DNA from: Candidatus Nomurabacteria bacterium
GTDB lineage: Bacteria; Patescibacteriota; Minisyncoccia; Phycocordibacterales; UBA9973
Reading direction: 5' to 3'
NCBI GenBank assembly: GCA_943359485.1
Contig: CALRHR010000004.1
Coordinates: 1-54,472 of the forward strand
Length of the DNA: 54,472 nt
This document shows positions 3,173-3,412 of this stretch, in pieces. A model generated the notes under the pieces. That model saw only the letters and a list, made by a program, of their open reading frames with translations, did not search any database and was not told the DNA's origin. Numbering within the stretch: position 1 is the first letter of the stretch; every line of letters begins with the position of its first letter. Both the position numbers and the translations under genes were made by a program.

Positions 3173-3412
3173 GGTCTTGCGAAGCTCCGCTTTTCACCAT
3201 TCAGACTATCATCGGATAAAATTAAATACTTTGTGTTGGCGACTACCTACTTTTGCCATGAAGACTATCATCGGCTCTGTAACGCTTAACTTCTCTGTTC
3301 GGAATGGGAAGAGGTGTGACCGCTACGATAAGTCACCAACACAAAACATTTAATGCTTAACTTCTCTGTTCGGAATGGGTGAAGAATGGGATGGGACCCA
3401 TTCTGCAAGACC
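3173..3412 (-). rRNA. Second 5S rRNA-like sequence, interrupted by the inner 5S
   Basis: On the minus strand this 5S-like RNA has a perfect 8-bp helix I (GGTCTTGC/GCAAGACC), the conserved CCATTCCGAACAGAGAAG and GTTAAGC, and after the interruption CCGATGATAGTC and the loop-E region GGTGAAAAGCGG. The interruption falls exactly between GAAGTTAAGC and CCGATGATAGTC and consists of a complete second 5S rRNA. The total is about 240 nt. Whether this outer copy enters ribosomes or is a relic cannot be told from sequence. Confidence 0.7.
3222..3353 (-). rRNA. rrf: 5S ribosomal RNA (inner copy)
   Basis: On the minus strand the sequence contains GGTCACACC, CCCATTCCGAACAGAGAAG, TTAAGC, CCGATGATAGTC and GGCAAAAGTAGG, the conserved landmarks of bacterial 5S rRNA, in about 114 nt. 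Helix I is unusually long: 3222-3239 pairs with 3336-3353 over 18 positions with two G-U wobbles. It is therefore presented as an inserted arm on the surrounding 5S-like RNA. It lies about 250 nt downstream of the 23S 3' end. Confidence 0.9.

Follow-up and report, generated by a model that had tools for sequence, protein, structure and literature searches.

Background

Remnants of 5S rRNA genes with a 5S-like core, large insertions and often missing terminal parts have been described at the ends of rRNA operons, and were judged to be pseudogenes (Stepanov and Fox 2021; PMC7812874). These remnants are located downstream of a normal 5S rRNA gene, and are found in Peptococcaceae and Pseudoalteromonadaceae (PMC7812874). 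The 5S rRNA of Halococcus morrhuae is also expanded; it retains an intact canonical core and serves as the 5S rRNA of the ribosome (PMC7530397). The rRNA genes of CPR bacteria are rich in insertions, and among 645 5S rRNA genes in a survey of CPR rRNA none had an insertion of 100 bp or more (PMC11270868). A literature search, of partial coverage, gave no report of one 5S rRNA gene nested within another.

Here we describe such a nested arrangement in a Candidatus Nomurabacteria bacterium, a member of the CPR (assembly GCA_943359485.1, contig CALRHR010000004.1). The whole stretch of this contig that was analysed, of 54,472 nt, is referred to as the window, and the genome itself (713 kb, completeness estimate 99.8%) as G000. 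The minus strand of positions 3000-3700 was inspected, the whole window was scanned against Rfam, and 80 genomes of the genus were searched with the outer DNA of the locus as query.

Organization of the locus

On the minus strand, an intact 5S rRNA gene lies within a broken second 5S rRNA sequence, the latter being interrupted in addition by two repeat elements, named R and R'. This composite is found at the end of an rRNA operon, downstream of the 23S rRNA gene, whose end was placed by sequence reading at approximately 3611-3631 (minus strand), at a motif that also ends the 23S rRNA gene in relatives. It extends from 3492 to 3084, beyond the interval 3173-3412 to which a first, sequence-only reading had assigned it, and is followed by a terminator-like hairpin with a T run (3046-3068, minus strand), recognized by a consensus match only. 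That reading had proposed a complete 5S rRNA inside a second 5S-like RNA, split exactly between two short motifs. Both points hold: the complete inner gene and the 5S homology of the outer sequence were each confirmed, and the outer sequence stops with GAAGTTAAGC at 3355 and resumes with CCGATGATAGTC at 3215.

The 23S rRNA gene of the same operon (3611-8327, minus strand) also contains several insertions. Weak matches to group I introns were found at 4795-5058, 3880-4138 and 5882-6115. The interval 4041-4523 encodes a LAGLIDADG protein. The full-length Rfam match stops at 5162, and 23S-like sequence runs on to about 3611. Near-identical palindromic inserts (CATCACATTGCATGTGATGCAGGCTCTAGGAAACTAGGC...) are present at 7957-8047 and 6282-6412, with related CTAAGCCTA-type repeats at about 5140-5205 and 4775-4860.

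The inner 5S rRNA gene

The inner 5S rRNA gene (3235-3340, minus strand) gives a match to RF00001 (3340-3234) of 75.5 bits, against a gathering cut-off of 38, in which all model positions from 1 to 120 are covered. This is the only match to RF00001 in the window, and there is no other 5S match in the genome. As the sole 5S match in a genome that is estimated to be 99.8% complete, the inner gene therefore almost certainly encodes the working 5S rRNA of the cell, as far as can be judged from sequence. Its helix I is lengthened by a pair of 14-nt arms (3354-3341 and 3234-3221, minus strand), which belong to an inverted repeat (I2) of 24 nt in total at 88%, as detected by repeat analysis. In four of the nested genomes, the inner helix I is predicted to pair with a probability of 0.98 or more. 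The earlier description of the insert as a full 5S rRNA with an extended helix I is thus accurate, and the accompanying suggestion that the inner copy is cut out and used is probably correct, given that the genome has no other 5S.

A 5S rRNA that is encoded last in an rRNA operon is released from the transcript by cuts near the ends of helix I. By analogy, the operon transcript would carry the entire composite, in which the inner 5S would fold independently, its extended helix I keeping the fold apart from the outer parts. The inner 5S would then be released at the extended helix I, like an ordinary 5S rRNA, and the outer parts would be by-products that are discarded as leader and trailer.

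The outer 5S rRNA sequence

For tests of the outer sequence, a 5S HMM was built from 27 relatives. After removal of R, R' and the inner gene, the joined outer pieces score 52.9 bits with this HMM, compared to a best score of 3.8 in 1000 shuffles, which identifies them as homologous to 5S rRNA. Even with the shorter extent drawn in the sequence-only reading, the joined outer sequence scores 41.1 bits and its shuffled versions at most 2.9 (1000 shuffles), so that the refuting condition set in that reading, a score no better than random, does not apply. Rfam does not report a 5S match for the outer sequence because that sequence is split.

The true helix I of this relic is formed by a 5' arm with extended flank (3474-3492) and a 3' arm (3102-3084), which together constitute an inverted repeat (I3) with 84% complementarity and have the type II end described below. 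The 5' part (3458-3482), as aligned to the type II 5S of relatives, reaches as far as ACATC and comprises helix I, loop A and the 5' strand of helix II, which is shortened. It is followed by loop C and the 3' part of helix III (3355-3377, CATTCCGAACAGAGAAGTTAAGC), with 97% identity to the corresponding stretch of the inner 5S, by the 5' side of helix IV (3197-3215, CCGATGATAGTCTGAATGG), with 83% identity, and by the 3' end (3084-3113), which is of type II and 82% identical to the inner 3' end (positions 3081-3113 in the repeat analysis). All these parts are on the minus strand. Helix I and its flank therefore lie 80-90 bases beyond the previously drawn interval on both sides. What had been taken for the outer helix I (GGTCTTGC/GCAAGACC) is in fact complementarity between the inserted repeats R and R'; the 5S homology of the outer RNA stands, its earlier extent and helix I do not.

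The outer copy does not have all five helices of a 5S rRNA. Where the inner gene sits, it is short of about 9 nt, which read CCGCTAGTG in relatives and form the 3' strand of helix II; this strand is missing in all five genomes with the nested arrangement (G000, G005, G008, G017 and G064). In G008 and G017 the outer 5' half or helix I has also been lost.

The R and R' elements

The R element (3378-3455, minus strand; 72.6 bits with our model R1) consists of a hairpin P1 (CTCCTTACAGGAG), a stem P2, a hairpin P3 and an end TCACC. It lies within the 5' strand of helix III of the outer 5S, which it interrupts between CACATC and CATTCC. In an alignment of 21 copies, 86.7% of the cells of the three helices are paired, and 14 of the 26 pairs have changed on both sides, with none of 500 shuffles being as good. 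The covariance model has matches in 32 of the 80 genus genomes, with at most five copies per genome; in a sample of 192 genomes from the phylum, only three had matches, including the present genome. 5S genes with and without R at the junction of CACC and ..CATTCC are known; we infer the insertion and its boundaries, because the occupied and the empty sites come from different species.

The R' element (3114-3196, plus strand; GTCACA...CTTGC...TTCACC) lies within helix IV of the outer 5S in the reverse orientation to R, i.e. antisense to the 5S. Among 13 aligned copies 91.7% of the positions in helices are paired overall, and the first helix, P1', is 100% paired, with double changes in seven of its seven pairs. 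R and R' have the same layout of hairpin, stem, CTTGC, hairpin and TCAC, which suggests a kinship. A close relationship was rejected: the full-length alignment of model R1 to R' scores only 3.8 bits, and the two are therefore treated as separate families.

Copies of R or R' adjoin tRNA genes, duplicated tRNA ends and the end of rplL, as well as restriction-modification or NYN genes. R copies occur near accessory genes and are found in both orientations at tRNA genes. A 6.1-kb contig (G102:C27, L169) has R at both ends, in inverted orientation, with DNA methyltransferase genes in between, and R may thus bound defence islands. Several further copies were observed. The present genome contains a diverged R (L164, G000:C9:233-309; 35.7 bits) and another R' near a tRNA gene (L111, G000:C16:396-443). 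R-like hairpins occur inside inverted copies of a tRNA 3' end, adjoining an intact tRNA gene, in G287 (L162) and G014 (L153). In G265:C34 (L181), at about position 4170, a copy of R lies within an open frame of 628 codons, apparently without closing it.

Various candidate identities for these elements were considered and rejected. R does not belong to a known RNA family such as group I or group II introns, as copies outside 5S have no Rfam match at E-values up to 1. Self-splicing introns, which require a fixed orientation, do not account for R and R' in general, both orientations being found and Rfam matches being absent. R' runs antisense to the 5S, and the R copies at tRNA genes face either way; a role of these elements at the DNA level is therefore more likely than splicing, judging from their sequences. 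Mobilization of R by a Y1 transposase, as in IS200/IS605 or REP/RAYT systems, was also considered. Genomes with R do not all contain a Y1 transposase: no match was found in the R-bearing G008, G068, G075, G016, G078, G083 and G100, and across the 80 genomes Y1 genes have no tie to R. Among the proteins tested near R, which were part of the neighbours, no integrase was found using Pfam. As conserved structured repeats at 5S, tRNA and rplL loci that are absent from Rfam, R and R' may point to a mobile or recombination site of an undescribed type in the CPR.

The locus in related genomes

A 5S match was found in 51 of 60 relatives. The identical nested order is present in five species (G000, G005, G008, G017 and G064, the last of which has lost R'), so that the check in related genomes proposed by the sequence-only reading revealed four further species of the genus with the same nesting. 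An assembly artefact is ruled out because five species carry the nesting, the other four having been deposited as separate records from different samples.

Other relatives have related or partial arrangements. G030 has an intact type II 5S followed downstream by a nested form without the first half of the inner gene. In G034 half of the outer copy has been lost and the outer 3' end alone remains. In G004, R, the 5S middle and R' are present and the inner gene is absent. In four genomes (G029, G035, G060 and G089) an intact 5S precedes one that is interrupted by R, in some of them with at least 1 kb of accessory sequence between the two, including a gene for an NYN-domain protein in G029. Several relatives have a plain single 5S, and in most genomes of the genus the 5S is plain and has no outer parts.

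Between nested genomes, the identity of R is 90-99%, that of R' and the 5S flanks 89-93%, and that of the inner 5S 85-95%. As R and R' are conserved to a similar degree as the inner 5S, while the spacer between the 23S and the outer sequence varies from 16 to 130 nt, the outer parts appear either to act, as DNA sites or as RNA, or to be exchanged between species. The outer parts therefore do not drift freely, and this is the strongest evidence against their being plain debris.

5S rRNA allele types

The 5S genes of the genus are of two types, I and II, which differ in helix I, loop A and the flanking sequence, with GTTGGTGATT..GTCGCCAAC in one and TCTGGTGCTT..GGCGCCAGA in the other. The inner gene is of type I in all five nested genomes, and the outer end is of type II in four of the five. 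On an RpoB tree, the allele type of the working 5S has changed at least six times, equal to the number for shuffled labels, and the nested state requires five changes, no fewer than when shuffled. The nested genomes and their decayed relatives mostly belong to one RpoB clade, but are scattered within it. The R elements of G017 and G008 are 99% identical, although G017 branches first in this tree. This pattern fits a repeated swap of one allele for the other, with nesting as a stage, leaving aside the direction and the vehicle, as far as sequences can indicate.

IleS was discarded as a species marker because its similarity splits into two groups. The isoleucyl-tRNA synthetase of the window (44710-48726, minus strand; 1338 aa) contains a histidine-phosphatase/phosphoglycerate-mutase-like stretch at residues 511-600, and in G017 and G034 the matching sequences pass over residues 507-678, as though this domain were lacking there.

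Origin of the nested arrangement

We propose, as the probable explanation, that a former 5S gene, broken by R and R', encloses a second, intact 5S gene that took over from it. The outer sequence would be a former type II 5S gene that has kept its terminal place in the rRNA operon. It would have been broken by R in the region of helix III, by the reversed R' in helix IV, and by an intact type I gene with its own extended helix I, which would have replaced the 3' strand of helix II. Nesting would be a stage in the replacement of the resident 5S by another allele, at a locus into which R-type elements and accessory genes come repeatedly, and the outer copy would then decay; with less certainty, the inner gene could have been cargo between R and R'. 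A finding that goes against this explanation is the 89-99% conservation of the R and R' elements of the outer copy between species, akin to that of the inner 5S: useless sequence would hardly be preserved to this degree, and the outer parts may therefore be functional, or may be re-acquired. The explanation is also weakened in that no mobilizing enzyme could be linked to R and that a search for a free R-5S-R' cassette gave none. The genes for rRNA are held to be vertically inherited, and in genomes with a single copy they are held to be hard to replace. The nested state, having both alleles at one locus, would offer a testable route for the replacement of an essential RNA gene.

There is an appreciable chance, short of even, that the arrangement arose by tandem duplication and deletion, the element itself being passive. 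Two or three tandem 5S genes, one of them with R and R', would have recombined so that an intact copy was left between broken halves. The tandems of an intact and an R-interrupted 5S in G029, G035, G060 and G089, and the collapsed nested form in G030, are consistent with such a course, but it requires two matched deletions, and leaves unexplained both the difference between inner and outer alleles and the retention of R and R'.

It is rather unlikely that the locus was entered by a mobile cassette, with R and R' as its ends or recombination sites and a complete 5S as its cargo, which inserts in a resident 5S and supplies a working replacement. Some elements are known to restore a tRNA gene on entering it. 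Movement of R-5S-R' as a cassette would agree with the scatter of nested genomes on the RpoB tree, with the near-identity of R in G017 and G008, with the duplicated gene ends and the accessory genes that other copies of R and R' abut, and with the different inner and outer alleles in four of the five genomes. However, no integrase or transposase was found linked to R, a free R-5S-R' cassette was not found, pieces of 5S lie between R or R' and the inner gene, and vertical decay in the sister pairs G064/G034 and G000/G030 would fit as well. The stricter claim that a cassette bounded by R and R' carries a working 5S, and targets and replaces the resident 5S of its host, is doubtful; if true, an element equipped with its own rescue copy would exchange an essential rRNA gene between species. 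The cassette and the collapse of tandems are two routes to the same anatomy of a relic plus an intact gene, and either is compatible with the take-over of a broken 5S gene by an intact one that we propose.

We consider it improbable that the outer parts function as a leader-trailer structure, or as a small RNA, in the maturation of the inner 5S. R and R' are strongly conserved and a long-range pairing of the two sides is predicted with probability 1.0 in G000 and G005, but this stem, found for the most part in G008, is absent in G017 and thus was rejected as a common feature. Moreover, half of the outer copy is lost in G034, R' is lost in G064, and most genomes of the genus do without outer parts. 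The weakest possibility is that a composite 5S, expanded to about 240 nt or beyond, serves in the ribosome, as had initially been envisaged. This is very unlikely and was rejected even though the outer halves score as 5S: the 3' strand of helix II is missing from the outer copy in all five species, the 5' half or flank of this copy has often been lost (helix I in G008 and G017), two extra repeats are present in it, and an intact inner 5S is at hand.

Comparison with known systems

The expanded 5S of Halococcus morrhuae, to which the locus had at first been likened, resembles it in having a large extra sequence. The parallel fails because the intact core is there the ribosomal 5S, whereas the outer core described here is incomplete, is not the sole 5S and accompanies an intact inner gene. 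The group I introns in the 23S rRNA gene of this window are a likeness to the insertions and introns known from CPR rRNA genes; R and R', in contrast, are without Rfam matches and are found in either orientation, so that splicing offers no general explanation for them.

Like REP-type palindromic repeats (surveyed in PMC3733652), R and R' are dispersed, structured and intergenic, and Y1 transposases are common in the genus. They differ in being about 80-100 nt long with three hairpins, in adjoining RNA genes, and in a presence that does not track that of Y1 genes. As for mobile DNA at RNA genes, genomic islands at the 3' ends of tRNA genes are associated with gene-end duplications. The R sites likewise show gene-end duplications and accessory genes; no integrase was found here, and a whole gene rather than its 3' end would be restored.

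The nearest known kind is formed by the 5S remnants of Stepanov and Fox, with which the outer copy shares a 5S-like core, large insertions and missing parts. It differs from them in surrounding the only working 5S rather than lying downstream of it, in its occurrence in a genus of the CPR, and in holding two dispersed repeat families inside.
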